Positions 15,999 to 56,634 of a DNA stretch of 64,000 nucleotides are shown one piece after another. Both the position numbers and the translations under genes were made by a program. Position 1 is the first letter of the stretch; each line of letters opens with the position of its first letter. The notes under the pieces are model-generated. The model did not search any database. It saw nothing but the letters and a program-made list of their open reading frames with translations, and had not been told where the DNA came from. The DNA is taken from positions 42,485,843 through 42,549,842 of the forward strand of contig CM037867.1 in assembly GCA_021292105.1 (NCBI GenBank), in the 5' to 3' direction. Source of the stretch: Anadara kagoshimensis. Taxonomy: Eukaryota; Mollusca; Bivalvia; Arcoida; Arcidae.

Positions 15999-17511
15999 TG
16001 TCTAAAAAACTATCACGAAGAAGTTGTTCAGTACTTTCCTGTACTAACAGTTGGTACACACTCGAACAATGGAGCAAAACATATGTGAAAAATACAAATG
16101 CAATTTGGGCCAAGCGTCATGTGTCTGCCCTCCTCCATATAAGCTTTTCCCTTTCCCAACTGAACGAAAGAATCCACAGGGTCGGTTAAAATGGATAAGT
16201 CTTGTGAATAGGAAGGAAGGATCAGCTAACTGGATTCCAACAACAGAATCCAGAATTTGCTCAAAACACTTTGTTGATGGAGAGCCCAGTCAAATGCATC
16301 CCTTTCCCACTTTGGAGCTAGGGTATTTGCCTTTTGCAGAATTCAAACCAGCAAGACCAGTTCCACGTGACAGATCAGACCAAATACCCAGAAAGAAAAC
16401 AAAATTTGAAGAGAACACTTCACTGCAATCATATAACTTAAATGTAAATAAAGAAAATATATGTGGGCAATCTGATCATGATGATAACTATCATGTAAAA
16501 AGAGATCATGATTATACATGTATTCCAAAATGTGAACTATGTGTCAATAAATCAAATGAAATAAAAAGATTACATAATAAAATTAAAGATTTGACAGAGC
16601 AGGTTGATTTTTATAAAAAGAAATATGAAATTAAAACTAAAAAAGAATTTGTAGTTAGCACAGTGTTGAAGGATGACAAAAAGTGTAAGTACTACACAGG
16701 AATCCAAACAATAAATTCCTTCAACAAAACATTCAAAATAATAACAAAGAAAGTAAAAACTATTAATTATTGGAAAGGTCCTAAAAAAACATGCAACCCA
16801 CTGAAGACCAACAAAAAAGTCATCACACAAAGAGAAAGGTGTTTAACCAGAAAAGATGAATTTATTATGACTCTTATGAAGTTAAGATTAGGTTTAACAC
16901 TGGAGGATTTGTCTGACCGTTTTGGTATATCTACTGCTCATGCTTCCTCTATTTTTACAACTTGGGTAAAATTATTGGCTAAAACACTAGGAGCTATGGT
17001 TTTCAATCTCCCTAAGGAAGTTGTCAAGTCCAGCTTGCCCCCATCCTTTAAAAATCATAAATATAGTAATGTAAGACACATTATTGATTGTACAGAGGTA
17101 TTTTTAGAAACTCTCAATAATCCAAATTTGGCTTACAAAACTTGGAGTGATTACAAGTCCCACCACACAGCCAAATTTTTATTAAGTATAAACCCATCTG
17201 GTTTAATTAATTTTGTATCGGACTGCTATGGTGGTAGACACAGCGACAAGTTCATAACTAAGAATTGTGGCTTCATGGATATGGTACAAATGTATGACGC
17301 CATAATGGCTGATAAGGGATTTTTAATCAGAGAAGATTTAGCCCTTAAGGGAGCTGAACTGTTGATACCACCTGGTCATAGAGGTGCCGCTCAAATGTCA
17401 TCTTCAGATGTTAGATTGACAAAACAAATTGCCAATCGAAGGATACATGTTGAGCAGCCTCTCTTGGATGATATGTTTCGTTTTACCGGGGTTTTCCCCT
17501 TTGACCTTTGA
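15999..17511 (+). CDS. THAP-domain DDE transposase (Harbinger/ISL2EU-like), frameshifted and truncated
   Basis: The main frame (16,051-17,511; first ATG 16,069) encodes about 480 residues. Order: an N-terminal THAP-type zinc finger ending in RICSKHFVDGEP (C-x2-H ligands, residues ~73-76), a basic linker with a probable coiled coil (KIKDLTEQVDFYKKKYE, ~180-200), an HTH_Tnp_4-like helix-turn-helix (LTLEDLSDRFGISTAHASS, ~285-305) and a DDE_Tnp_4 catalytic core. Candidate catalytic residues are D346 (DCTE), D421 (MADKGF) and E468 (RIHVE). It would bind element ends and catalyse cut-and-paste transposition. Two defects show. A typical THAP start, RRSCSVLSCTNS, sits in another frame from ATG 15,999, implying a 1-nt frameshift between about 16,041 and 16,090. 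The protein also stops about 18 residues after the catalytic Glu, earlier than usual. Probably a dead copy. Confidence 0.8.
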
Positions 17512-22572: not shown

Positions 22573-23596
22573 TTATAAACCGAGATTAAGGGAAACCAAT
22601 ATTTTATTGGGTAAATCGTCTTTTATATATCCGTCTTTTGCTATGTCGGTAACCCACCTACCATGAGCTTTGATCAGCCTGTCAGGAACTTGATGGTTAG
22701 CAGCTGCGCTAGCCCCACCACTACGTAAACTATGGAGACAGTATTTTTTAGGATCTAAAGCAAGCGTTTTTAGGGACGTAATAAGATTTCTCTTGCTCTT
22801 GTATAAGATAAACCTTTATTTTTATTCGTGGCTTTGTATGTGTCAGATTTGCTTGAATAATTTATAGCAGTGAACAAATATTCGCTCGAGTCTTTGGATA
22901 ACCCTGCTTTTAAAATATATTTATTTAACCATGAAACCGGGCACAGTTTGTTGCCAGTCTTTGCAATTACTATTTCGTTTCCTCGTCTATAAGTATCCGT
23001 TTTACTTTCTCTTATAGAAATTTTAACATAACCCTGCTCAAAACACAGATCACTCATTTTGATATTAGCAAGTTCATTATATCTAAGAAACCCTGAAAAC
23101 CCTAGCAAACATAAAACGCAAGTCCGAAGATTAATCAAATTATTTTCGTCTTTTCCAAAATGATCCACCAGATTGTTTAAAATATCAACAGTAATTGGTT
23201 CTTTTTTCATAATAGGTTTTCCGAGAATTCGTTTACCTCCTTCCATTACTAACTTCAACAAGTTATCCTCACACGGATTAGAGTTCAACGAAATTTTGTG
23301 AAACCAATTTATGCTATAAAAATATGATTCCAACACAGCATTAGAAACTCCTTGTTGAATTAATCCACAAAGAAACAAAGACACAGCTGGCACAGATGCT
23401 GGTAATGACACAAAACCATTTAAGATACACCATTTTTCAAACTTCAAAAAATAACTATCATATTTCTTATTTGTTGATTCACTTCTGGCACTTCTTACTA
23501 TTTTAGGCAACAAACTAGCAGATAATCCGAGGTTTTCATGATCTTTATATTCGTTTAAGGTTTTCCAATGACTTGTGCTAAACGATATTCCAAATT
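22573..23596 (-). CDS. DIRS tyrosine recombinase (YR), one frameshift
   Basis: Would integrate the circular cDNA by site-specific recombination. The first frame (to 22,770) has a SAM-like N-terminal core-binding region (STNKKYDSYFLKFEKWC) and the catalytic domain start with LRYNELANIKMSD (first Arg) and RESKTDTYRRG (Lys region). It then hits a stop after TRAREILLRP. The next frame continues without a gap: LITSLKTLALDPKKYCLHSL, RSGGASAAANHQ, HGRWVTDIAKDGYIKDD, giving the HxxR, W and nucleophile Tyr (DGY) motifs, and ends at 22,573. One missing base in the T-run at 22,787-22,789 (an A-run on the coding strand) explains the break. No ATG lies near the N-terminus: an in-frame TAA is just upstream, and an acceptor-like TTTTTGCTAATTACAG precedes 23,596, so it may be reached by splicing from pol. 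Confidence 0.88.
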
Positions 23597-24159
23597 CTGT
23601 AATTAGCAAAAATTAAACGAAATTAGTATATGTAAACAATTATATTAAAAACTAAATAAAACACTAAATGCTGAATTTCAACGATTTCCTTAAATAAACA
23701 CAAAAATAACTTCGTTTACTCTGGAGTACAGTCCTCCATTAAAGTAACACAATTTCATTAAATTGGAGTACAGTCCTCCATTAAATTAACACAATTTCAT
23801 TAAATTGGAGTACAGTCCTCCATTAAACTGACACAATTTCATTAAATTGGAGTACAGTCCTCCATTAAACTGACACAAATTCTTTAAATTGGAGTACAGT
23901 CCCCCATTAAACCGAAACTATTTCATTAAATTGGAGTACAGTCCTCCATTAAACTGACACAATTTCATTAAATTGGAGTACAGTCCTCCATTAAACTGAC
24001 ACAATTTCATTAAATTGGAGTACAGTCCTTCATTAATATAATTTGACCTCAATAAACAATGATTATAGTCCTCATTAACAAAATATATAATTTAATAAAC
24101 AGAAGTATAGATTATAACATGTTACTTATTAAAGTCTATATACAAAACCACTACATTAC
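23597..24159 (-). other. Possible spliceosomal intron joining pol to YR
   Basis: On the coding strand a donor-like ATAA|GTAATG near the end of pol (GT at 24,159-24,158) and the acceptor TTACAG (AG at 23,598-23,597) would remove 563 bp. Joining leaves the frames in phase: ...QQKFI then KFGISFSTSH of the recombinase. It would also delete the pol stop and the 42-bp repeats. The donor is weak; this is a hypothesis. Confidence 0.35.
23721..24056 (-). repeat. 42-bp tandem array (8 copies) with a hairpin per unit
   Basis: Units start at 23,721, 23,763, 23,805, 23,847, 23,889, 23,931, 23,973 and 24,015, an exact 42-bp period. Each holds TGGAGTACAGTCCTCCA, an inverted repeat with 5-bp arms and a 7-bp loop. 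It lies between pol and the recombinase. One minus frame is open except for a TAG in the 23,889 unit. Confidence 0.95.
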
Positions 24160-26569
24160 TTATGAATTTCTGTTGCGCAAAAACAGAATTTTTGTCTGAA
24201 CCAGGTACAAAGAAATTAGATGGCTTCAAATACTCGATCGAGTCCCTTACAAATGATTTGAAACTGCCATCAAAATTCTTAATTTTCGGCCAGAAATCTG
24301 ATGATTTCCATTTTGGAACAATTAAAACACCTCTACACTTAAAAAGCTCAGCATGAAATAAAGTTTGTGTAATTAACTTAACTGGAGGTACAATCCAACA
24401 AAATTCACTAGACCAATTAAATGCAAAAGCATCTACTCCACTAGTCCCTGGCGTCCAAAACTGAGAATAAAATTTTTGGACTTTGAAATTGCTGGAACTT
24501 GCAAACAAATCACACGTGAATGGTCCCCATTTCTTATTGAAAAACTCAAAAATATGAGAAGAAACTCCCCAGTCGTCCCAATCAAAAACCTTGCTGTATA
24601 AATCAGCCTCAGTGTTAAGCTCTCTTGGTACCCATGCAACACTTAAGTTTATGTCAAATAGCACACATAATTGAAAAATATCTACAGCAAACGAATGTAA
24701 CGAGGATGTCATACTGCCCTTATTTATAATGCGTACAACGTTCTGATTATCTGTAAACAATTTAACATATCTACCTCTCAACTTATCTTTAAAAGCAAGA
24801 ACTGATAGCTTAACTGCTTTAAGCTCTCTGTAAGTAGAGCTCTGTAATACATCATTTTCGTCCCACATAAAATGTGCATGTGAGTTTGATTCTTGCAACA
24901 ACACTGCTGCACCTGCAGCGTCACTGGCGTCAGTAAATACAATTCGTTCTACTTGTCTAATAATTGGTGATATAACCCTTAATGGCAAAATCTCTAAATT
25001 ACTTTGCCAGAATTTTAATTCGAATTGTGCAAAATGATCAATTTCAATATCTGAATCCCAGTATATCCGGGATAAAATTAACCTTATTAAATTTCTGGTA
25101 AATAATTGACAAATTGGACCTAGAGCTGGTTTTAAAGAAATAATTTTACCTACTATACACGCAATTTGTCTGGCAGTTGCATGTTTATTTGATAACATTG
25201 TCACAACAAGTTGAATGATTTTTTGGATCTTATCCAAAGGAACCTCTAAAACAGAAGTTTCAAGATTCCATATAAAACCTAACCATTCCATTATTTTTGA
25301 AGGATAAAAATTGCTTTTTTCCTCATTTATAACAAAACCTGCGTTTGCAAGATCACTTTGAATTTGTGTGGCCATAGTATTACAGTTTGCTTTTGTATCT
25401 GTAGCCCATCCGTCATCAAGATACACAATTATCTTGAAACCCATTCCACGCCATCGCAAAACCAAAGTCCTCAATACTTTAGTGAAAATATAACCAGACT
25501 GGGATAAACCAAATGGTAAAACAGTAAAAACAAAGTATTTATATTTGTCACCAAATTTCCAAGCAAATCCTAAATATTTTTGATGATCAGGATGAATATC
25601 TATGTGATGATAACCAGATTTAAGATCAAATTTTATCATAAAATTGTCTTTTTCGGCAAATAATAAACCTTCTGGGACACCTTCAAATTTAATTCTCATT
25701 TTTGATAAACACATGTTGACATGCCTTAAATCTAAAACTAGTCTTTCTTTACCACTAGCTCGGACGGAAACTGTCAATGGATTAACACAAAAAGGGGGAT
25801 TTTTAACTTCTATTACACAACCATTTTTCAACAAATCAGCAATGGCCTGTTCAACAAATAAAGCATGTTTCTTCGAAGAAGCATTGTTTTTAAGGAAAAC
25901 ACTGGATGGTAAATAATCAAAATGTAACATATATCCGTATGTTACTACATTATATATATAGTCATTTGCTTTCAATTCATTTTTCCAAAAACTGTGACAT
26001 CTAGCTAAATTTCCTTTAACACTTACAGATTTTATTTCAGAGTTACTATTTTTAACATATTCTGCATTTTTAAGGACATTGTTCAGTGTTATAAAGTTAT
26101 ACTCATCTTTATTGCTGATTGTCTCTGTTTGTTGGTCCTGTAACTGTCGCTGAGATGTTTCCAATTGTTGACTTTTTTGTTTGTGTTTGACCTGTGTATG
26201 GACACTCTCTCGCCATGTGGCCTGGAAATCCGCAGTAGAAGCAAACTGGCAACTGCTGTTGTTGTTGCTGCTGCTGTTGCTGATAAGGGAACGGCCTACT
26301 GAATTGTGGCCTCTGGATGAAGTTGCTGTTCCTGTTGTATTGCTGCATTGGATATCGGGGGTTCCTAGCTGTTTCAAAGCTACGAAAAAGCTGATTATCA
26401 GACATGCTATCAAAATAATTATTTTGCGTTTTTCGAAAACCTGTCGCATAAGGATGAAACCTGTTACGCTTAGCATTAGAAATATTAATTGCATTACGGA
26501 GTTTAGCTGCATCTTCTCCGTCATCAGCAATGGGATCATCGGAATACTCTCTTGCCGTATCCCACCCAT
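24122..26569 (-). CDS. DIRS pol: reverse transcriptase - RNase H - DNA methyltransferase-like
   Basis: Replicates the element through an RNA intermediate. The open frame is 815 codons, but the first ~150 overlap gag in the +1 frame and are probably not native; true translation likely begins near the gag stop (26,109) by reinitiation or frameshifting. RT motifs: RLVLDLRHVN (~270), FDLKSGYHHIDIHPDHQKY (~310), VLPFGLSQS, and the catalytic box YLDDG (~383). RNase H: FTDASDAAGAAVLLQ (~545), SSTYRELKAV, LFTDNQNVV, and PRELNTEADLYSK. C-terminal methyltransferase-like part of DIRS elements: CDLFASSSN, FWTPGTSGVDAF, and VPPVKLITQTLF (~690-740). Length and domain order match PAT/DIRS elements with a methyltransferase domain and not Ngaro, which lacks it. 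No internal stop. Confidence 0.93.
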   Translation of the reverse strand: MGGIRQESIPMIPLLMTEKMQLNSVMQLIFLMLSVTGFILMRQVFEKRKIIILIACLIISFFVALKQLGTPDIQCSNTTGTATSSRGHNSVGRSLISNSSSNNNSSCQFASTADFQATWRESVHTQVKHKQKSQQLETSQRQLQDQQTETISNKDEYNFITLNNVLKNAEYVKNSNSEIKSVSVKGNLARCHSFWKNELKANDYIYNVVTYGYMLHFDYLPSSVFLKNNASSKKHALFVEQAIADLLKNGCVIEVKNPPFCVNPLTVSVRASGKERLVLDLRHVNMCLSKMRIKFEGVPEGLLFAEKDNFMIKFDLKSGYHHIDIHPDHQKYLGFAWKFGDKYKYFVFTVLPFGLSQSGYIFTKVLRTLVLRWRGMGFKIIVYLDDGWATDTKANCNTMATQIQSDLANAGFVINEEKSNFYPSKIMEWLGFIWNLETSVLEVPLDKIQKIIQLVVTMLSNKHATARQIACIVGKIISLKPALGPICQLFTRNLIRLILSRIYWDSDIEIDHFAQFELKFWQSNLEILPLRVISPIIRQVERIVFTDASDAAGAAVLLQESNSHAHFMWDENDVLQSSTYRELKAVKLSVLAFKDKLRGRYVKLFTDNQNVVRIINKGSMTSSLHSFAVDIFQLCVLFDINLSVAWVPRELNTEADLYSKVFDWDDWGVSSHIFEFFNKKWGPFTCDLFASSSNFKVQKFYSQFWTPGTSGVDAFAFNWSSEFCWIVPPVKLITQTLFHAELFKCRGVLIVPKWKSSDFWPKIKNFDGSFKSFVRDSIEYLKPSNFFVPGSDKNSVFAQQKFISNVVVLYIDFNK

Positions 26570-26987
26570 ACTTGTCAGCTACTCTCAAAACTTTATTTCT
26601 ATTGTTTATTATTTTAATTTCTTTGTCAATTATGCAAGAAACTTCTGAAATATTGCCCGTTTTACAGTTCAGTTCAATTTCATTAAGAGCGTTTACACGT
26701 TCTTTATTAAAATTAAATTGAATTTTGTTTCCCTCGCTTTTAAAAGGAATATTAGATATACTTTCCTTTCTCTTTGTAACACTGGTTAATTCTTCTAAAA
26801 TTCTTTTCCTCTGTATATCAAGGGCGTTGTCCAAAGTCTGATTAAAAATGGCTACTGCCTCATTAGTAGTGAAATACTCCGTATCACGCCTTTCTCCGCT
26901 ATCTCGTCGTGACTTTTTGGAATGCGAATCTCTTCTGTCTCTACTTCTGTCTCTACTGTTTCTATCTGAATGCTCTACATCCGACAT
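26109..26987 (-). CDS. DIRS gag-like protein with CCHC zinc knuckle
   Basis: 292-residue structural protein of the DIRS element, expected to bind element RNA in ribonucleoprotein particles. The N-terminus is rich in Arg, Asp and Ser (SRDRSRDRRDSHSKKSRRDS, about 10-30). A helical middle follows, then a poly-Gln run of about 10 residues (CAG/CAA codons, about 238-247), and a zinc knuckle CFYCGFPGHMARECP (about 249-263; C-x2-C-x4-H-x4-C). The ATG at 26,987 is unambiguous: the A1 repeat ends on the first base of the start codon, so A1 is the 5' leader. It overlaps the pol frame by about 460 nt in a different phase. Confidence 0.9.
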   Translation of the reverse strand: MSDVEHSDRNSRDRSRDRRDSHSKKSRRDSGERRDTEYFTTNEAVAIFNQTLDNALDIQRKRILEELTSVTKRKESISNIPFKSEGNKIQFNFNKERVNALNEIELNCKTGNISEVSCIIDKEIKIINNRNKVLRVADKYGWDTAREYSDDPIADDGEDAAKLRNAINISNAKRNRFHPYATGFRKTQNNYFDSMSDNQLFRSFETARNPRYPMQQYNRNSNFIQRPQFSRPFPYQQQQQQQQQQLPVCFYCGFPGHMARECPYTGQTQTKKSTIGNISATVTGPTNRDNQQ

Positions 26988-27199
26988 TTTACATTAAAAT
27001 ACTTGAACAACTTGTTACTCTCTTGCAACTAGCTCGAATGACACGAGTGAGAACACTCGCGTTTTTATCCACGCACGGATTTTAACATCGTGTATTAACC
27101 AATTAACCAATCATATGATACGCATTTTATCGGTACTTAAAAACCCGAAACATTCCGAATTACATAAACACAAAATAGAACGCAAAGAAATTAATTTAT
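26987..27199 (-). repeat. DIRS split direct repeat A1 (213 bp)
   Basis: 5' terminal repeat and presumptive promoter/leader of the element; it runs into the gag ATG. No difference from A2 was found by eye over 213 bases. Confidence 0.93.
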
Positions 27200-39284: not shown

Positions 39285-39580
39285 GTCTGACTCTGGGTCT
39301 GACCCAAGACTTGAAAGTGGGTAGTGACTGTTATTTCGCCAAGCACTCGGCATTACGAAATGAAAGTCACGGTTCTTTCGGATGGAAACTTAAAATAATC
39401 GAGGTCCCGTGTCACGGTGGGCTTGGCACGCTAAAGAACCCTGTTGTATAATGCTATCAGCGCAACGCACAGACAAAACTTCTATTTCTGCACCTTCGCC
39501 TATAGCTGGCGACGTCTCGATATAAGTGAAATATTCTTGACTGGGACGTTAAACACCATTACCCACTCAATCCATAGTCG
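39285..39580 (+). mobile_element. SINE S1, well preserved body and tail
   Basis: Includes GTCTGACCCAAGACTTGAAAG, GCCAAGCACTCGGCATTACG, GGCACGCTAAAGAACCCTG, CGACGTCTCGATATAAGTG and GACTGGGACGTTAAACACC, ending ACCCACTCAATCC. The tRNA head is decayed. Confidence 0.85.
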
Positions 39581-41165: not shown

Positions 41166-41558
41166 AAAGTCAAAGTAAATAAAAATAACATTAGCATTAG
41201 ACCGATATAAGTCATTTGTTAAAGCATATTGATAAATAATTTGTAAGCTGCTCTTACAACCGTAAAAATAATAGTGTTGTTGATTCGCTGATTTTACTGC
41301 AAAGGTGATAAATATGCCGAACTATTCATCTAAAAATATCGGGCATGAAAAACGTTAATGTATATCAGAAACTTGATTTAAAATGAGTATGAAAACTTAG
41401 CATCATTCATCCATGAATAATCCGACCGGTTATTTCTGAAGTAACATGCTAAATATGTAATAAGCAAATGTCTGTTGTGGGAACTGCCAGACATGCGCAC
41501 TAAGCTTCAAAATTCAGAATAATTGATATCCAATGTTCATTGATATTATGTATTAGTC

Positions 41559-41564
41559 TATAAG
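41559..41564 (+). promoter_or_regulatory. Possible TATA box for the 41,677 exon
   Basis: TATAAG within TCTATAAGAGCGGG, about 115 bp before the ATG. With a start site about 30 bp downstream the 5' UTR would be about 90 nt. Position-based inference only. Confidence 0.3.
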
Positions 41565-41676
41565 AGCGGGTCTTTCATTCGGGTGGAGGAATCAATTACT
41601 TAGTGAAATTAATTGGATTTATTTTCAAAAGTGGATTATTTTACAAGAGTGATTTTTTACGTTAAAAGCCTCCGTT

Positions 41677-41737
41677 ATGGAGGCTGTAAAATGGATTATT
41701 TTGTTAATTCTTGTGACTTTTTCGAAAAATATCAAAG
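41677..41737 (+). CDS. Signal-peptide first exon 2 (phase 1), paralogue of 50,965
   Basis: ATG 41,677 encodes MEAVKWIILLILVTFSKNIK plus the first base of a Gly codon, then a strong donor (AAAG|GTAAGA, GT at 41,738). The peptide is a classic signal sequence: charged start, hydrophobic IILLILVTF core, polar end. The exon at 50,965 encodes 15 of 20 identical residues. Of the 13 identical residues that have alternative codons, 11 use a different codon in the two copies, so selection has kept the protein while DNA diverged. The 5' UTRs also align (GCCTCCGTTATGGAGG versus ACCTCCGAAGATGGAGG). The mature protein and its family are unknown; later exons must lie downstream on plus. Confidence 0.68.
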
Positions 41738-42216
41738 GTAAGAAATCATTTTATTTCTTTTTTTAAATTAGTTTAAATTTTATTTTGAAAATGAAAAACC
41801 TGTTTGTGATTTTAAATAGCAAAATTAAACTTTAATATAAAATTTTATTTTGAAAATGAAAACTTTAAACGATTTTAAAAAGTAAATATAACATAGATCT
41901 TTATAAAAGTGCATCTTAAAAACGAAAACTTTCAAAAAATTAAAACAAAATCTCCCTTCTTTTTCTAAAATAGAATGTTGGTTATGATTAGTTTTTTTAG
42001 GTTCAAAAAAGTTTTTCTCTCTATTTCCAAGAATTATATAAAGTTTTTGACAATAACAATCATTATTATGCAGACCTGAAATTTTTTCTCCAAAGTTTTT
42101 CCGAATTTGGGCACGATAAAAAGATGATCAAAGTTCAAATTAATTTTTTTAACTTCACATATAGAATAAATGTTATATCGTTTTGTATGATGACTTTGGT
42201 GTTTTGTTGATTATTA

Positions 42217-42259
<43 letters not shown>

Positions 42260-43360
42260 GTTATTGTGCATTCCTGTAGACGCAAGTAAAGCTTGTTTGG
42301 TTAAACAGCAGTGTATATAAAGGGGATGGGCACTTAGATTATCCAATAGCGTTACACTGTCTTCGTGAATGTAAAACGTTTTAACGATCCAGTAAACTTC
42401 AGCATCAAACCTCTTCTTCTTCTTCTTCGTCTTCTTCTTCTTATTATTATTATTATTATTATAAAATAAAATAAAACATGTAGATTTTAATTTAAAAACA
42501 TTATTACAGATTTTCGAACTTTCGTAACCGATCTTGCCCTTCTATTACCTATTAACCTAGCTAATAACGCGTTTAGAAATTTGGCAAATTACAATATTTC
42601 GGTAAATGTCAATGTATGAATTTTATGGAAAAAACTAGCAAAAAATAAAATTATTTGTCTACAACTCGCATATGAAGCAACACGTACAACAAACTAAATG
42701 TTTATCATTACAATCATACATTATTAAAATATTGCTTAGCAATGGAGGGAATTTTCAAAATAAATTCACATACCCTTATACAAGACTTTGGTCCGTTATT
42801 TCATTAACATAACACTATTAGGACACATCAATGACTTTTTAATATACAAGTCATATCGATTGTAAATTTTAATGTATTAATAATGGAAGTTATGTTATAA
42901 TGAAAAAAATATCTTGATTGTTATCTCAAAAACGTTTGATTGTGTAAAATCACTCTGTTCTTCTGGTCATTGGGTTGTAAAAAAATGTAGGATATGAAAG
43001 TTTAATATAGACTGGTATATGATTTATAATCACCCATTATGGTTGTACCTTTGGTGGTGAGTGACTGGGTGGATGTACAATGTCTAATGTGGTAAATGAA
43101 AGGGATTGGTGGAGTATAGAATCTTATAAAGTCTTGTTAATAATATCTTAAATGAGCCATGTTTAATATATTGTATAATAGTTAATTATTCGCAGTTAAC
43201 TAGAATGTGCATGTCATTATTAATAACACCTACACGCTGTATATTGACTGTTATAAGTGTCATATACCACTTTTTGAATGTCATTTATGATTAAATTAAA
43301 ATAGTGGTATATTACATAAGTAATGTCGTCGTGTTGATTAATTTGGGCGTCTTGGTGTAA
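41738..43360 (+). other. Putative first intron of the 41,677 gene; TTA and TTC microsatellites
   Basis: A+T-rich. (TTA)n at about 42,212-42,260 and (TTC)n(TTA)n at about 42,412-42,462. No second exon recognised. Confidence 0.4.
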
Positions 43361-43364
43361 ATTT

Positions 43365-45095
43365 GTTAGAGGGTTCTATGCGCCAACGTGTTGGTTAATT
43401 GAGATTCTTTGGTGCTAGTATATTGGTTAGTTGATGCGCTTTTGTGCTAGTGTGTTGGTCAGTTGATGCGCCTTGGTGCCAGTGTTAGTTAGTTGTTGCG
43501 CCTTGATGTCAGTGTGTTGGTCAGTTGATGCGCCTTGCTACCAGTGTAATGGTTAATTGTTGCGCCTTGGTGTCAGTGTGTTGGTTAGTTGATGCGCCTT
43601 GCTGCTAGTGTGTTGGTCAGTTGATGCGCCTTGGTGCCAGCGTGTTGGTTAGTTGATGCGCCTTGGTGCCAGTGTATTGGTTAGTTGCTGCGCCTTGGTA
43701 CCAGTTTATTGGTTAGTTGTTGCGCCTTGGTGCTAGTGTGTTGATTAGTTGATTTTCCTTGATGTCAATGTGTTGGCTAGTTGAGGCTCATTGGTACCAG
43801 TGTGTTAGTAAGTTGATGTGCCTTGGTGTCGGGGTGTTGGTTAGTTGATACCCCTAAGTGCCAGTGTGTTGGTTAGTTGATACGCCTTGATGTCAAAGTG
43901 TTGGTTAGTTGATGTTCCTTGGTTTCAGTGTATTGGTAAGTTGATGTTCCTTGGTACCAGTGTGTTGGTTAGTTGATGCGCCTTGATTTCAGTGTGTTGG
44001 TTAGTTGATGCGCCTTGGTGTCAGTGTGTCGGTTAGTTGATACCCCTAAGTGCCAGTTTGTTGGTTAGTTGATGCGCCTTGTGTTAGTATGTTGGTTAGT
44101 AGATGTTTCTTGGTGTCAATGTATTGGTAAGTTGATATTCCTTGGTGTCAGTGTGTTGGTTAGTTAAGGTTCCTTGATTTCAATGTGTTAGTTAGTTGAT
44201 GTTCCTTGCTGCCAGTGTAATGGTTAGTTGATGCGCCTTCGTGTCAGTATGTTTGTAAGTTGATGCGCCTTGGTACCAGTGTGTTGGTTAGTTGCTGCGC
44301 CTTGGTGTCAGTGTGTTGGTTAGTTGATGCGCCTTGGTGTTAGTGTGATAGTTAATCGAGGTTCCTTTATGTCAATGTGTTAGTTGGTTGATGTTCCTTG
44401 CTGTCAGATTGTTGGTTAGTTGCTGCGCCTTGGTGTCAGTGTGTTGGTTAGTTGAGGTTCCTTGGTACAAGTGTGTTGGTTAGTTGATGCGCCTTGGTGC
44501 CAGTGTGTTGGTACGTTGAGGTTCCTTGGTACAAGTGTGTTGTTCAGTTGATGCGCCTTCTGTCAGTGTGTTGGTTAGTTGATGCGCCTTGGTGTTAGTG
44601 TGATAGTTAATCGAGGTTCCTTTATGTCAATGTGTTAGTTGGTTGATGTTCCTTGCTGTCAGATTGTTGGTTAGTTGCTGCGCCTTGGTGTCAGTGTGTT
44701 GGTTAGTTGAGGTTCCTTGGTACAAGTGTGTTGGTTAGTTGATGCGCCTTGGTGCCAGTGTGTTGGTAAGTTGAGGTTCCTTGGTACAAGTGTGTTGTTC
44801 AGTTGATGCGCCTTCTGTCAGTGTGTTGGTTAGTTGATGCGCCTTGGTGTTAGTGTGTTAGTTAGTTGAGGTTCCTTGATGTCAATGTATTGGCTAGTTG
44901 AGGCTCATTGGTGCAAATGTGTTGGCTAGATGGGGCTCATTTGTGCTAATGTGTTGGTTAGTTGGGTTCTTGTTGACAGTGCGTTTGCTAGTTGAGGCTC
45001 ATTGGTGCAAATGTGTTGGCTAGTTGAGTCTCATTAGTGCTAATGTGTTTGTTAGTTTAGGGTTCTTGTTGACAGTGCGTTGGCTAATTGAGACT
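43365..45095 (+). repeat. 1.7-kb minisatellite, ~32-bp unit with ~255-bp higher-order repeat
   Basis: Over 50 diverged copies of GTGTTGGTTAGTTGATGCG followed by CCTTGGTGCCAGT. A block starting TAGTGTGATAGTTAATCGAGG at 44,341 recurs almost exactly at 44,596, so eight-unit blocks have duplicated recently. No long ORF. Confidence 0.95.
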
Positions 45096-45430
45096 AAAAT
45101 TACATAACTTGTCTTGGCAAATATAAAATCAAATTGAAGATTTAAATAAATCAAGAATCATTTAAACATTATAACGTCACCTGCGTTGTAAGAATTGTTC
45201 ATCAAACCTCCGAAATCTTCAAAATGGTTTTTAGTCTTGTAGCCTGAATGTAATCATTTTACGATTATTTTTGCAGAAGTTCGTCTCTGTACAACGTGAT
45301 ACCCTGTAACATTCGTGCAGAACAATTATTTCCAATGGAATTATATTAGTTCACGTTTTAACGTAATATGACGTTTTTTACCGGAATTCACGACGTAAAC
45401 GATTTTCAATCGACCCACGCAATCGTTAAC

Positions 45431-45618
45431 CAGGCGCGGATCCAGACGGGGGCACACCCGGCCTGTGCCCCCCCCCCCCATAAATTTCGCAGTCTCTTCA
45501 CCACACTATAAAATGGGTGAGGACTGTTCTATATAGCTTTTGTCCCCAAACACTGTCAGTGTGACACCACCCCCCCCCACCCCCCACCCTCCAACATAGA
45601 ATCCTGAATCCGCCACTG
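45431..45618. mobile_element. MITE, 188 bp, TTAAC target duplication
   Basis: Left CAGGCGCGGATCCAG and right CTGAATCCGCCACTG are imperfect inverted ends of the widespread AGTGGCGGATCCAGG type. TTAAC flanks both sides (45,426-45,430 and 45,619-45,623). The interior has two poly-C tracts. Confidence 0.8.
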
Positions 45619-45623
45619 TTAAC

Positions 45624-47064
45624 GGGTTTTGACCACGTTGAACAACCCCCATTATAAACAACATTAATCAATGTCATAAAACACCAATTTGTCTTATGAT
45701 GTAACAGACGGCAACGTTTGCTCCCCGATATAAATTCGCGGTAAATTTAATCATATCTGGGGCAAAATCAGAGTCTGAATTTTCAGCAATGCTTAAAAAT
45801 CGTTGTTTTGTTTGGCATTTGCATATATAGTTTGAAAGAAAAGAACAAAAAGTTTATAGACCAAGGAACATTGAGTTTGTGACATGGTGGATTTTTAGCT
45901 TGGGGTCTGTTTCGAAATTAAATAAAAATAACTTAGAAATAACTTAATTAAGAGGATGGATAGAAATCACTAAGTAAATACCCACCCACCCTTCCGTAAC
46001 AAATACGATGTTATCAATATATATATTATGCTTTTTAAGGTTTAAACAAATAAAATAAACCTTCTGTTTAGGAGAAATTCGACGCCGATTTTTATCACTC
46101 CTATTTTATTTTGTTAAAGAGTAAACTATTTAATTTAAAGAAAATTTTATTTATTTATTTACTATGTGCATTAAGTAATAGCCAGTCCCAAAGTCAAACA
46201 AACGATATTGGATTTTGATCAAGTATTTTCTCCTTGTGACACGCCCTTTCGTAATTTTTGAGTCTCGTTTGAGGAATGGTTAATTTTTACATTAGTGCAA
46301 GGGAACGTTTTACATAACAAAACATATAGATAAACATTGTCAAGCTTTTGAATGACTTGCTAGATCTTTTTATCAAAAAATAATTAACAAGATGGTCTAT
46401 TTATCAAAGATAGTGATCACACAGCAGTGTGTACATGTGTCGTACTATTTCCCGCTGACAATAACATAACCAGTTAAACGCTAATCTACCGTAAATAGCT
46501 ATATTTTTATTCTACAATAATAAATGCATTCTTGTCTATTTGAAGATGGCCTCAAATTTAAAACCGGTTTTCAATTCGCGAATTCAGACCCAATTTCGGC
46601 TTCGGCTTTATAACAAGACCTGAGCCTTGTCGTCATTGCTGTAATCTACAACTGCTTTATTCTAATTTTCTTGGACTGTTTTTGTTGTGTTTACATTGGC
46701 CGTTTGTTTCTTTTTTGTTTGTTTCAAGAGACAGTTTTAGTTTATTTTGTTTTGATTACGCATGTGTCTTTTTTTGTTTTTGTTTGCGGACTGTTTCTTT
46801 CATTATATTTATGTTTTCTGTTTTTGATTGCATTAAATGTTATAATTATATGCTTGTCATGATCAGCTACTGATGTCCTTCTAGTTTATTTTGTTTTGTA
46901 TCGTTTGTTTGTTTTTCATTTGTTCTCTGTTTTTGCTAAAAGATTGATATGCAAGTAAAAATGTAGTTGTACAGACGGTTTATAGATTTTGATAACATTC
47001 GTCATTTCTTTGTTTCCATTAGACTTTATATTAACAAGCAGGAATGAGCTATGAAACGCCGTTT

Positions 47065-47065
<1 letters not shown>
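45624..47065. other. Intergenic/intronic DNA, T-rich
   Basis: No gene recognised. Overlapping 63-codon plus ORFs at 46,671-46,873 are phenylalanine/valine-rich and reflect T-richness. Confidence 0.4.
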
Positions 47066-47149
<84 letters not shown>

Positions 47150-47272
47150 GGTTCTCAATCTGTCATCTTTTGTTTTCTCTCTCTCTCTCTCATCTTTTGA
47201 TCTCTCTCTCTCTCTCTCTCTCTCTCTGGTTCTCACTCTGTCTCTGTCTTGTTCTCTTTCTCTCTCATTTGA
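47066..47272. repeat. (TC)n microsatellite, interrupted
   Basis: Long CT/TC tract with short interruptions. It produces an Arg-Glu repeat ORF on minus (46,916-47,344) that was rejected as a gene. Confidence 0.95.
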
Positions 47273-47839
47273 ACTTGAAATGATGAACTTGTATGCAAAT
47301 AATATCCTTTTAACTTGTAAAAATTTTAAGACTAACTCAAACATACAAATGTATGCTATAATAGTAGTTTAAACGCACATACATAATGTAGAATAGATCC
47401 TTCATTGCCAGGAAACAGTCAACTCTGCCTGTTGCTGGGAAAATTCACTAAGGAACTCCAGTAAAAATATTAAATTTTAATAATTCAAAGTCTAGTAGGG
47501 CTACAAATCAACCAGGGATCTTAATTAATTTGATATTGAAAAGTAAAATACAGGATCAATCGTGACAGAGAGAAGAATTACTTGGTTGAGGCATTTCCAA
47601 TAATGTCCTTATCATTGAATTAATTTGATATTAATGAAGTATTGAAGTAACGACTACTACAATTATAATGTGCCTATATGTTCAATTAGAAATAAATTGT
47701 ATCTAAAAACATATATAAATATTGTAAACCGGGGAATTTTCGCGCCAGGTCATGTTTGAGAGAATCGTCATTTCAAGGCAAAGTGAAACCCTTCTATATT
47801 CTGGACACCCTCCGGGCGAGGCATTTTGCCCGGTTTAGA

Positions 47840-48706
47840 GAGTTGAGTTGAGTTGAGTTGAGTAATGGTGTTTAACGTCCCAGTCATGAATATTCACTTA
47901 TATCGAGACGTCGCCAGCTATAGACGAAGGTGCAGAAATTTTACTTGTGCGTTGTTACGCCACATAGCGGTGTTGCCGCATAAACGTGTTCCAACACGTC
48001 TATGCGGGGAATTTCAACACATAAAGAGAATGCTTTCATGCGACAAAAAGGCTACATTCCGCCGCATGAAGAAAACAATTACTATCATCACCTGCATTTA
48101 CACCTCCATCATTATTACAACCTTCACAAAAAGCACCACCACCATCGTGATGATAATATTATTATTATTTTTTTTATTATTAAAGCAAAAGTCGAAATTC
48201 TGCCAAAATCACAATTTAACGATCATCAACATTACAGTCATAATCGCCACCGCCGTCGGCACGACGACGGTAACATCGTCGTCGCGCTCTCATCGTCCCT
48301 GTCCCCATCCTCGTATTATTATTACCATTATCAACAACACCAACACCATAAATTCTCAATTGTCACCGTCGTCATCATAATTTATATCACCATCGCCGTT
48401 TTTGTCTAGATATCAGCTCTTTTTAAATTTCATACCAACTCGTTAAAATTAGCCATCGTTATGCGTCAAAAAGGCAGCCTTGCGCCGCATATAAGCAACA
48501 CATCTTTATGCGTTGAACGCCGCCGCATAAACGTGGCGGACCTCTTTATGCGTTGGAATTCCCCGCATAGACCTGTTGGGTGCGGTTATGCGGCAACACC
48601 GCTATGTGGCGTAACAGTGCGTTGCGCTGATGGCATTATACAGCAGGGTTCTTTAGCGTGGCAAGCCCACCACGGACACGGGACCTCGTTTATCTTAAGT
48701 TAGAGA
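47840..48706 (-). mobile_element. SINE S1 interrupted by a TIR transposon
   Basis: The S1 tail (minus) starts at 47,840 with a (TTGAG)n run, GTTTAACGTCCCAGTCATGA and TATCGAGACGTCGCC. It is cut at 47,953 and resumes at 48,616 with GTGCGTTGCGCTGATGGCA and GGGTTCTTTAGCGTGGCAAG. The uninterrupted order is visible at 56,299-56,634. Confidence 0.85.
47954..48615. mobile_element. 662-bp TIR transposon (non-autonomous), ~8-bp TSD
   Basis: The first and last 30 bases are perfect inverse complements (GTTACGCCACATAGCGGTGT ... ), and weaker pairing extends to about 76 bp (TCTATGCGGGGAATT on one side, AATTCCCCGCATAGA on the other). TGTGCGTT precedes and AGTGCGTT follows, an 8-bp target duplication with one mismatch; the empty site is known from intact S1. 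Subterminal GCCGCAT/ATGCGGC motifs recur in both orientations. Eight-bp duplications are seen in hAT and P elements; superfamily is not settled. The interior is His-codon-rich low complexity, so the 171- and 135-codon ORFs are doubtful. Confidence 0.85.
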
Positions 48707-49235
48707 GGTGTCCGGTTTAAAGAGGCCGGTGGAAAATGTATCTCCTACTTTTATTGTCGCGTTGTCGGGTGAATGCTAGTGTAAATGCATGTGGATTCAA
48801 ACAAAATCAAATATTCGCGAAAGCTTTTAATGTCTTGCTACTCTTGCGAATTTATGCGAAAATCAAACGAATGCAATGTTTCCCAAATTTACAGAACTTT
48901 GCAATACCCAACGCAGCTTAGAACAAGATACATGAGACAGCAAAATAAATCAAACAAACACGCTTTAGAACCACTGATTACAAAACCCCTGACTTCGGAC
49001 GGGTACAAGAGTAAATGTCCAGACATATAGGTAGGTAGAGTAAATGGGTTTTACTCTCCGAACATGTTGTTTATTTGTAACTAGGTGTGATCGTAGAGGG
49101 AGGAATTCCCGGAGAAAAACACATTGCAAAGAAGCAGACAAACATGTGCGAACTAGGATCTTGCCAAGTATGATTCGGATCTAGGCAGTAGAAGGCTATG
49201 ATCCATTAGTTCACATTTTAAACACCTGATCACCA
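48707..49235. other. Intergenic DNA
   Basis: Begins with GAGAGGTGTCCGGTTTAAAG, a motif that also flanks the SINE on its other side (CCCGGTTTAGAGAG at 47,829), so S1 may have inserted into another repeat. No gene. Confidence 0.35.
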
Positions 49236-49239
49236 TTGA

Positions 49240-49322
49240 CATAGAACATTTGAAGACTGGTGACGGCCAGATATAAATGAAATAGTATTGACTAAGATGT
49301 TAACCCCAATCAATTAATCAAT
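49240..49322 (+). repeat. SINE S1 3' tail fragment
   Basis: GACGGCCAGATATAAATGAAA, TTGACTAAGATGTTAACCCC and AATCAATTAATCAAT form a decayed S1 tail. A second scrap, GAGTTGAGTTGGGTAATATCG, is at 49,868 in the opposite orientation. Confidence 0.55.
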
Positions 49323-49954
49323 ATTTTGAATATAGTCTTAGTGTACTGGGCATGAGATACCTGTAATATGCTTGCGTTTTTGTTAGTCAGTAAGTCCATT
49401 AATAAAGCTTAGTGATTTCTGAATGGCTAAATGGCTGAATAGTTGTATGTACCAGCATGAGACGTTACTTTATAGTATGTGTGACAAATTGTGTACATGT
49501 ATTTTACGTTAATACATGCGAAATGTAATAGCGATATATAATGAATGTCTCGTGTTATATAACCAAGTCTTTGTAAACAATTTGTATACAAACTGGGAAT
49601 GTTCTTACTGAAATACTACCAAACATCAATATCTAGAATCGATACTTCAGGTGAGAACTAAAATTGGTTCTCAATCATTAATAACGTTGATGACTCGTGT
49701 AAAATATAACAATTTTACACTTTATATATGATAGTGACATGGATAACTAATTTTAACTCCATGATATAGCACTCAAACATGTAGCTTTTTATTACATACT
49801 GCAGTACAGACTTAGCTAAAAATACCAGCTCAAGTGCCAAATCACCAGCTTTTCTTGGTCACTTTAGAGTTGAGTTGGGTAATATCGTTTAACAAATACG
49901 TTTAACGTTTGCGTCTGACAAATACGTCATTTGAGAAAGTTTTTTTTTACTTGT
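49323..49954. other. Intergenic DNA
   Basis: Nothing beyond the SINE scrap at about 49,868-49,890. Confidence 0.35.
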
Positions 49955-49956
49955 CT

Positions 49957-50045
49957 CGGTGGCGCAATTGGTTAGGGCGCGGGTCATTCTTATGCTAGGC
50001 GTTTTGGTGTCGAAGGGTGTACATGCACGTTCGAGCCCCTAGAGT
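49957..50045 (+). repeat. tRNA-like element head
   Basis: CTCGGTGGCGCAATTGGTTAG is A-box-like and CGTTCGAGCCCCTAGAG is B-box-like, about 75 bp apart, then A-rich sequence. The acceptor stem does not pair, so it is a SINE head or pseudogene, not a tRNA. Confidence 0.45.
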
Positions 50046-50261
50046 GGCAAAAAATATTATCTTTAAAATATCGTTTAAAATCACAATTTTCGTTAGCTTT
50101 TGACGGGTCTTTATTGTATTTTAGTATATGACCTTATCTGTCCGCTTGTAATACTGTACATACATATGTTTTGAATAATACTAAATGTCCAAAATCTTAT
50201 ATTAGCATATTATATAATAGAATATCCAGATCCAGTGTCTTCTGTAGGGGTTGTAGATCTA

Positions 50262-50590
50262 AAAAAACAAAATCATACCTGTCCATGTCAAAAAAACAAA
50301 ATACAAAAGCAAAGTTAAAACTTGAAAGCTGGCAAAATAAGTTCTTCACATGAACTTTAACCTGCAGGAAAGGTAACCGAGTGTTCTGGAAGTGTAAGCA
50401 CCTCCATTGCACGTGGGTACTCCGGAAGTGTAAGCATCTATTGCACGTAGGTACTCCGGAAGTGTAAGCACCTCCATTGCACGTGGCTACTCCGGAAGTG
50501 TAAGCATCTATTGCACGTAGGTACTCCGGAAGTGTAAGCACCTCCATTGCACGTGGCTACTCCGAAAGTGTAAGCACCTCCATTGCACGT
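50262..50590 (+). repeat. R1 copy whose end has expanded into a tandem array
   Basis: R1 body at 50,262-50,395, then GTACTCCGGAAGTGTAAGCA recurs about six times to 50,590 in ~34-37-bp units, alternating CACCTCCATTGCACGTGG and TCTATTGCACGTAG, so a ~70-bp dimer is the higher unit. Confidence 0.85.
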
Positions 50591-50964
50591 GGCAAAAAGA
50601 GTAAACATAACTTTTTATAACCAGGATCCGTATTTCAATAAAGAATTAAGGTTTTTTTAAATTTCAATTTATTAATTTTACTCGTCAGATTCTGTAAGCG
50701 ATTACTTTAAACATGTGGGTGTAATCTACGCTTCCGTTACTCTATCAATCGAGGTTATAATTGATTTTAAATTTTGAATAAGTCTTGGCCAATCAAGTTT
50801 TATTCCTTATAACTGTAGCAATTATTGAAGGTGGGGAAAGTGGTATATTAAGATCTTTATGTCTTGACCAATCAAATCAGAGTTGTAATTATTTTCACAA
50901 TTACTTGTTAGGTAGAAAAATAAAGATTTGTGAGTTTTTACTTTTTCGCGACTAACCTCCGAAG
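50591..50964. other. Presumptive promoter region of the 50,965 exon
   Basis: A+T-rich; AAAAATAAAG at about 50,916-50,925 is the only TATA-like element near the ATG. Nothing firm. Confidence 0.2.
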
Positions 50965-51025
50965 ATGGAGGTAGTCAAGTGGATAATATTATTGATATTG
51001 GTAACATTTTACATCCAAATTCAAG
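50965..51025 (+). CDS. Signal-peptide first exon 3 (phase 1), paralogue of 41,677
   Basis: ATG 50,965 encodes MEVVKWIILLILVTFYIQIQ plus one base, then donor CAAG|GTAGGG (GT at 51,026). Exon length (61 bp), phase, start context (CTCCGAAGATGGAGG) and peptide match the exon at 41,677, while nearly all silent positions differ. This argues for coding constraint on a secreted or membrane protein with a cleaved leader. The two exons are 9.3 kb apart on the same strand: tandem paralogues or alternative first exons. No later exon was recognised downstream to the window end. Confidence 0.68.
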
Positions 51026-52270
51026 GTAGGGTTTTATTTTTGTTTTATTTATTGTTTAACTTATAGGATCTATACAAAATGTACTCAACAAAAACAGTGA
51101 GGGGCCAATGTAAGATATGAGAGAACAATCCTAGAACTGAAAAATATAAAAGCCAAATGTATTTTGTTCTTGATCTCTTCTTCTATCAAATGATGTATTG
51201 AATAAAAAAATTGTGCATGAAATCAAAACTCATTAAAAATTACGAGAAATGCAAAGATGAAATGATATGATTTATGTTCTACAAAATTATATAATGTTGT
51301 TGATGTGGTCTGCAACTTTTTTTGTTGAGTGTATTTTGCTTTCATTGTCCATTGATAAATAAATCTTATTTGGTGTGCCGAATTCTCTAAAGACTTGTCA
51401 GTTTATGACGTTTTACAGTGTTGCATGTTTAATATTGGTAATCATTGTCGCTTACAAATGCGTACCAGTTTTTTTATCCCAAGACTAGCTCATGATCAGA
51501 CGTCCCTAGCCTAGCATTAGTTTTGCAACAATGTGACAAAAATATAAGTAAGCAGTTTTTAATTTTGTAATCTAGAATAGATATTAGAGCAACCTGACTG
51601 ATAATGGTGCCATTAATACTATAGAAAAATAAAGCAAAAGATACCAATAATACCTAGTGATTTTGTAGAATTAAGTGCGTCAAGAAGAGGAAGAAATTCG
51701 TTTTTTCGTTGATGCAGAAAAGCTAGCTAAAAATTTGAAATTTTGAAACTTAGCGTAAAATCCCTGCAATCTGAGGAAGTGTAAATAATAATATGTAAAT
51801 AAAGATAAATCCGACGCCAGAACCCTCTTTTTGAATCTGTAGTTAAACCTTGTATAAGGTGAAGAAAGCGATGTACGGTGGCTGAATGAGGACATGTAGA
51901 AAACCGATTTCACGTGGAAGTCATAATTATTATTCCTCGTGCGCACGCGGAATTTTTTTCTGCATGGCCTGATTCAGCCGCCATACGATGTCTATGCAAT
52001 CTGGCATCATCTTCAATATTTTTACAATATGTTCATTTTGTGTTGGTCATTAAGCCTTCTTTTACACAGTTTTATAAACTAAGGTTAATAATCAGAATGT
52101 CTCTATCAACACATTGTTTAATTTTCTGCCACCCACAACCTAATTAAACCGTGACAATTTGAATGCTAAAATCTATACGTTTAATTCAATTATATGCAGT
52201 AAATCTAGATTTTCGGGTGTCTAAATAACTAGAACTATCTCTTGAGACCCAAAACTCCATGCCGGTTTAA
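51026..52270 (+). other. Putative intron 1, nothing recognised
   Basis: A+T-rich. ORFs of 77-88 codons on each strand at about 51,680-52,147 have no recognisable features. Confidence 0.35.
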
Positions 52271-55910: not shown

Positions 55911-56298
55911 TTCTTTTATTTGTTTCTGGCATAAACTTGTGTTTGTTGCGTTGAATGTTAATATTTACACGGTTTCTAGTTACATATCTTTCTTTTACAT
56001 AATCTTAAAGAAGAAGTGATTCTTACCCGTCAAACAATATAGTGCTGAATATTTAAAGCAATGTCATCATAAAGCTTTTCGGAACAGGTCTTTTTTTAAG
56101 TTTTTAAGAAATTCAATTTAAGTTGTGCAATATTTAAATTTTTAACTTTAAACATAACTTGGTATCAAGTCTTTTGATTGCATCTATCGGGGAATAAAAT
56201 GGCATTTAACTAACCATTAAATTGATTGAATGATTTTTTTAACTTTATTAGTTTTTACGTTAACTAGAAACTGGTTTTGGAGCTGTGAAGTCGTGTTT
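55911..56298. other. Intergenic DNA, nothing recognised
   Basis: No supported feature. Confidence 0.35.
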
Positions 56299-56634
56299 GA
56301 GTAATGGGGTTTAACTCCCCAGTCAAGAATATTTCACTTATATCGAGACGTCGCCAGCTATAGGCGAAGGTGCAGAAATTTTGCATGTGCGTTGCGCTGA
56401 TGGCATTATACGTCAGGGTTCTTTATCGTGCCACGCCTACCGTGACACGAAACCTAGTTGTTCTAAGTTCCCATCCGAAATTACCGTGACTTTCATTTCG
56501 TAATGCCGAGTGCTTGGCGAAAGAACAGTCACTTCCCACTTTAAAGTCTTGGGTCAGACTCGGTCGGGGTTCGAACCCACGTCCACCCACTTATGGAGCG
56601 CGCTCTCTGCCAACTGAGCTACCGCAGTGGCCCG
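56299..56634 (-). mobile_element. SINE S1, full-length reference copy
   Basis: Minus strand: tRNA head with GGTAGCTCAGTTGGCAG (A box, about 56,606-56,622) and GTGGGTTCGAACCCCG (B box, about 56,565-56,580); body with GACCCAAGACTTTAAAGTGG, GCCAAGCACTCGGCATTACG and AAAGAACCCTGACG; tail CGACGTCTCGATATAAGTG, CTTGACTGGGGAGTTAAACC. About 336 bp. Pol III-driven, LINE-dependent retroposon. The anticodon region is not a functional tRNA. Confidence 0.9.

Follow-up and report, generated by a model that had tools for sequence, protein, structure and literature searches.

Can a coding exon of only 61 bp be recognised from a single genome, and which gene would such an exon serve? These questions are raised by a 64,000-nucleotide stretch of Anadara kagoshimensis DNA (G000:C11:42485843-42549842; the window), in which a sequence-only reading had singled out two paralogous first coding exons resembling signal-peptide exons, here designated leaders A and B (Table 1). 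They lie on the same strand, 9.2 kb apart, and both are 61 bp long. Each starts with an ATG, carries a hydrophobic core within about 20 residues and ends at a phase-compatible donor, as a signal-peptide exon does. We consider it likely that a single gene uses A and B as alternative first exons, whatever its remaining exons may be.

The case for real exons comes from the way in which the two leaders differ. Their peptides, MEAVKWIILLILVTFSKNIK and MEVVKWIILLILVTFYIQIQ, are identical at 15 of 20 residues, and 40 of the 61 nucleotides match, with 18/21, 17/20 and 5/20 matches at codon positions 1, 2 and 3, respectively. Given 39 matches over 60 positions, five or fewer third-position matches have a probability of P = 7.9e-6. 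The nonsynonymous and synonymous divergences (dN and dS), which the sequence-only reading had proposed to compute, come to a dN of 0.20 with an undefined (saturated) dS by NG86, and to a dN of 0.18 by maximum likelihood, where the dS of about 21 says nothing beyond 'saturated'. Among the 13 shared residues other than methionine and tryptophan, two use the same codon, while codon usage predicts 5.1–5.2; this shortfall is marginal (P 0.051–0.057). Both the residue identity and the 11 differing codons were thereby reproduced, and the coordinates, lengths, ATGs, phase and GT donors of the sequence-only reading were all found correct on re-checking. Its view of A and B as real exons under purifying selection is supported by the codon-position pattern and by donors at an identical place, and further by in-frame stops 9 (A) and 4 (B) codons upstream of the ATGs, a strong TATA-like site before A and two CCAATCA motifs before B.

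Could such a pair arise by chance, or as copies of a dispersed repeat? In support of chance, isoleucine and leucine codons are favoured in AT-rich DNA. All 714 open, ATG-started blocks of 20 codons on both strands were compared in pairs, counting only pairs with third-position matches at 10/20 or fewer. Within the window, A and B share 15 residues and the next best pair shares 9; in 100 Markov-1 windows, the best pair shared 8–10 residues in 99 and 12 in one, so that shuffles reach 12/20 at most, once in 100. The concern that the leaders might be a repeat, raised by the sequence-only reading itself, was addressed across the whole assembly (1.115 Gb, 36 contigs), where the peptide was found at these two places only; a recent repeat would, moreover, keep its silent sites, here the very part that differs. 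Chance resemblance or a dispersed repeat thus has next to no probability. In the individual searches, peptide A retrieved only A itself at E ≤ 0.001, and peptide B retrieved only B and A at E ≤ 10; just two candidates passed the first look in each search, so strongly diverged copies could escape. A degenerate DNA pattern (K-W-I-I-[LF]-[LF]-I) matched at four places (A, B, one on contig C16 and one on contig C7) and its reversed control at one. A leader pattern gave no match in viral_contigs. Judged by eye, the C16 match is without an in-frame start codon, and the C7 match has an ATG directly before the lysine but a Phe-Phe core and no Glu-x-Val start; both were rejected as third copies and taken as chance. 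As far as these genome searches reach, A and B appear to be an old two-copy duplicate.

Conservation stops at the donors. Beyond them, each frame runs on for a few codons into a tail unrelated to the other's, and the 400 bases past the donors align with a score of 29 (95th and 99th percentiles of random pairs, 26 and 32.4). The open frames, together with a conserved part that is a hydrophobic helix, would suit unspliced small open reading frames encoding related membrane micropeptides of 29 and 33 residues; this is very improbable, given that good donors stand at exactly the same place in both and that the conservation ends there. Upstream, the sequence-only reading had described matching ends of the 5′ untranslated regions. 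This holds for about six bases (CCTCCG directly before each ATG) and fails farther out, where an alignment of the two 400-base upstream flanks scores 21, against a median of 20 for random pairs. The score of the TATA-like site at A is reached by a fraction of 3e-5 of window positions, and the + strand of the window contains CCAATCA 10 times in all, including the two before B; these TATA-like and CCAATCA sites are sequence matches and no evidence of promoter activity. A short local repeat also precedes leader A, and TGGATTATTTT is present there and again within exon A.

Do A and B then head one gene or two? A tandem family and alternative leaders had both been proposed; the second fits better, the first meeting with neither gene-A exons before B nor a third copy. 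A separate gene headed by A would need to fit its remaining exons into the 9.2 kb that precede B, or else overlap with the gene headed by B. No exon set for such a gene was recognised between A and B, where short or fast-evolving exons may escape. In the + strand frames of 41,738-64,000, no Pfam family was found at E ≤ 1 save one meaningless match (E 0.2); the same method recovered a known retroelement as a positive control. A PDB sequence search with one of the three frames of the A interval gave only matches at E 0.64 and 0.82, which were disregarded. A codon-bias exon scan yielded rows mostly within a 32-bp tandem array after A and a few weak rows after B, and a comparison of the A interval with the B interval at E 0.01 gave, leaders aside, only repeats and matches in the tandem array. 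Cysteine-rich open frames behind acceptors were mostly repeats or low complexity and none was convincing. The array, of about 52 copies, is one of many tandem arrays in the window.

These results bear directly on another reading, in which A and B belong to two tandem genes for secreted proteins that arose by an ancient duplication and whose further exons escape recognition because they are short or evolve too fast. The shared strand, the 9.2-kb spacing and the equal exon and phase would all fit, and families with a conserved signal exon, a phase-1 intron and fast-evolving mature exons exist (as described in the parts of PMC3862624 drawn on here). In those same parts, the signal exons of conotoxins have low Ds too, unlike A and B. 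Since there is also no Pfam family, only a weak exon scan and no paralogous exon pair beyond repeats between A and B, we hold two tandem genes to be unlikely. Alternative leaders are favoured, as the interval from A to B showed no recognisable exon of a separate gene A and the searches brought up no third copy.

If A and B are alternative first exons, where might their common exons lie? For this, 260 kb downstream of the window were examined, with numbering continued from the window (subtract 42485842 from the C11 position). After B, strong + strand exons first appear 39–49 kb away; they are phase 1-1, Ser/Thr-rich and mucin-like: exons e1 and e2, followed by a tandem array with one exon per unit. 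Exon e1 scored 12.7 in a phase 1-1 exon scan, and the other three candidates between B and e1 scored 4.0, 1.5 and 4.4; with stricter splice sites, 17 of the 21 rows in 51–275 kb fell in the mucin-like exons, many of them nested. Serine and threonine together account for 32/51 residues in e1, 21/35 in e2 and 95/137 in the array exon, and proline for 0, 0 and 4, respectively. Of the six array copies, five form an open phase 1-1 exon of 411 nt; the sixth is broken and adjoins the 1-kb N gap at C11:42590870-42591869. As in mucin-like genes, these exons are Ser/Thr-rich, repeated, symmetric and kept in frame; no other mucin domain was found. Spliced to e1, either leader would complete a glycine codon, split as G and GA. 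An ATG at 92,211, before e2, offers a weaker hydrophobic start. After the array, a search of 105–247.7 kb for a terminal exon with a transmembrane segment gave six weak candidates, none convincing. Going by the DNA, the chances are about even that one gene has A and B as its alternative leaders and these mucin-like exons as their partner.

Relatives of the array exon occur elsewhere in the genome. The first 152 bases of this exon match at 25 places, of which 6 lie in its own array, 13 in a second array (98–99% identity) and 6 on contigs C1 and C11 (77–87%). Splice-site context recovered seven diverged exons at five loci, each of which is stop-free and divisible by three in length; five lengths occur among them (183, 210, 219, 267 and 273 nt). 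One further copy, in L030, is broken and was not recovered. The second array is 98–99% identical to the first but on the opposite strand, 0.8 Mb away. With the first array ending at the N gap, the pair could reflect either a scaffolding error or a recent duplication in inverted orientation.

Farther downstream lies a semaphorin-5-like gene whose domains are of the sema and TSP1 types, one of them SEMA5B-like, and whose exons span 275,176-304,735, starting with the first sema exon at 275,176. A strict scan for phase-1, signal-like first exons on the + strand of 30–276 kb found three: A, B and an exon within the 32-bp array. A more relaxed scan, over all phases, yielded 56 candidates, 23 of them in phase 1. 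The top candidate of the relaxed scan presumably corresponds to the start of Sema5, and semaphorin 5 likely has its own leader exon there. Semaphorin 5 was dropped as the gene of A and B for this reason, which leaves the mucin-like exons as their probable nearest partner. A single non-mucin gene, for example one with unrecognised exons within 51–247 kb, could still use A and B as alternative leaders: the tie to the mucin-like exons is itself inferred, and exon scans are insensitive to short exons. We regard this as quite unlikely, as no downstream exons of matching phase are stronger than the mucin-like ones and semaphorin 5 has a likely leader of its own.

Several observations weigh against leaders A and B serving a mucin-like gene. 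The link from leader to mucin-like exon is drawn from position, strand and phase only, and no 3′ end was found for the mucin-like gene. Near a diverged mucin-exon locus on C1, no leader candidates were found in the 8 kb upstream or the 10 kb downstream. Differences among the mucin-like exons are spread about evenly over the three codon positions, with the third position showing no surplus; what these comparisons reveal is a preserved frame and no residue constraint. The strict leader scan alone proves little, because 20 random sequences also gave 0–4 matches each, 3 of the 20 with a core as hydrophobic as that of A and B. Before B, no TATA-like site is stronger than the 0.66% level of window positions. 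Finally, cleavage sites follow a rule of small residues at -3 and -1; by eye, position -3 of the leaders is isoleucine, which is not small, if the split-codon glycine is taken as -1.

With these points in mind, alternative use of the leaders would work as follows. A and B would be duplicated first coding exons, each probably with its own promoter and each encoding a signal peptide (a short start and a hydrophobic core) that ends at a phase-1 donor. Transcription would begin at A or at B, and either leader would be spliced to common downstream exons, most likely e1, e2 and then the tandem array. The predicted product is a secreted or membrane mucin-like glycoprotein.

The core itself deserves attention. 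It reads WIILLILVTF, with a Kyte-Doolittle 9-mer mean of 3.47 in both leaders, and within residues 4–13 all eight Ile/Leu/Val positions are the same in A and B (V4, I7, I8, L9, L10, I11, L12 and V13). Exchange among these three residues is thought to be tolerated in ordinary signal peptides, and this residue-by-residue conservation is the one mildly surprising feature of the pair. Because these eight positions are identical though nearly all silent sites have changed, there is room for a sequence-specific job beyond export, such as that of a signal anchor or a post-cleavage signal peptide; we give this a slim chance.

Besides the leaders, the window holds a retroelement, which we take to be DIRS-type, a DNA transposon and a dispersed repeat family with copies in both orientations.

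Table 1. Leaders A and B and other features of the locus. Positions count from the first base of the window and continue past its end; entries beginning with G000 or C11 are contig positions.
Feature	Position	Strand	Details
Leader exon A	41677..41737	+	Signal-peptide-like first coding exon; 20 codons + 1 base, phase 1
Leader exon B	50965..51025	+	Paralogous to A; 20 codons + 1 base, phase 1
Splice donor of A	41738..41743	+	GTAAGA; consensus score 5.0
Splice donor of B	51026..51031	+	GTAGGG; consensus score 4.5
TATA-like site, candidate promoter of A	41558..41572	+	119 bases before the ATG; matrix score 11.93
CCAATCA, candidate promoter element of B	50789..50795	+	176 bases before the ATG
CCAATCA, candidate promoter element of B	50868..50874	+	97 bases before the ATG
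Mucin-like exon e1 (L004)	90,356-90,508 = G000:C11:42576198-42576350	+	From phase 1-1 exon scan
Mucin-like exon e2 (L004)	92,236-92,340	+	Symmetric 1-1 exon
Mucin-like tandem array (L005, L006)	99,327-105,027 = G000:C11:42585169-42590869	+	960-bp unit, one symmetric 1-1 exon per unit
Leader-like exon, likely of semaphorin 5	247,755-247,890	+	Phase 1, ending FDFRYTSYQ
Semaphorin-5-like gene (L021-L027)	G000:C11:42733597-42790577	+	Sema and TSP1 exons, likely leader exon
Second mucin-like array	C11:43403918-43415590		
Short local repeat	41614-41655		
Tandem array, 32-bp unit	43388-45057		Between A and B
Retroelement	22573-26993	-	Reverse transcriptase, RNase H, Dam-like, zinc-knuckle; tyrosine-recombinase below cut-off
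DNA transposon	16048-17511	+	Long open frame with THAP, HTH_Tnp_4 and DDE_Tnp_4 domains
Dispersed repeat family	39290-39569, 47858-48703, 56294-56566		

How does this arrangement compare with known systems? Full-text literature searches found no account of this exon pair. The candidate downstream exons are like those of mucin-like genes in being Ser/Thr-rich, phase-symmetric and partly in tandem, and unlike them in having very little proline. Conotoxin genes offer a second comparison: according to the parts of PMC3862624 drawn on here, they have a separate signal exon followed by a phase-1 intron in most superfamilies, with the signal as the most conserved portion. A and B share the signal exon with a phase-1 donor. 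In contrast to conotoxin signal exons, which are conserved at silent sites too (Ds 0–0.13; PMC3862624, Table 5), their dS is saturated, and no cysteine-rich mature exon was recognised behind them.

The closest likeness is to genes with variable first exons. In the portion of PMC1885805 used here, UGT1, GCNT2 and the clustered protocadherins have variable first exons that stand in a row, resemble each other, are equal in length and frame and are each served by a promoter of their own, and each variable first exon of UGT1 encodes a signal peptide. A and B likewise resemble each other, follow one another on one strand and are equal in length and phase; this likeness is known from the DNA, and splicing to common exons would complete it. 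Unlike UGT1, where (in the same portion) the variable exon also encodes an N-terminal domain, A and B come in two copies only and encode little beyond the signal peptide. The pair illustrates how a single genome can suffice to recognise a 61-bp exon when an old duplicate keeps its protein while its silent sites saturate. If transcripts agree, it would form a clean two-leader gene, differing only in promoter and in a near-identical signal peptide, and the residue-by-residue retention of the hydrophobic core would then call for an explanation. The layout of duplicated alternative first exons is a known one, of which A and B, if the splicing is confirmed, would be a small member.

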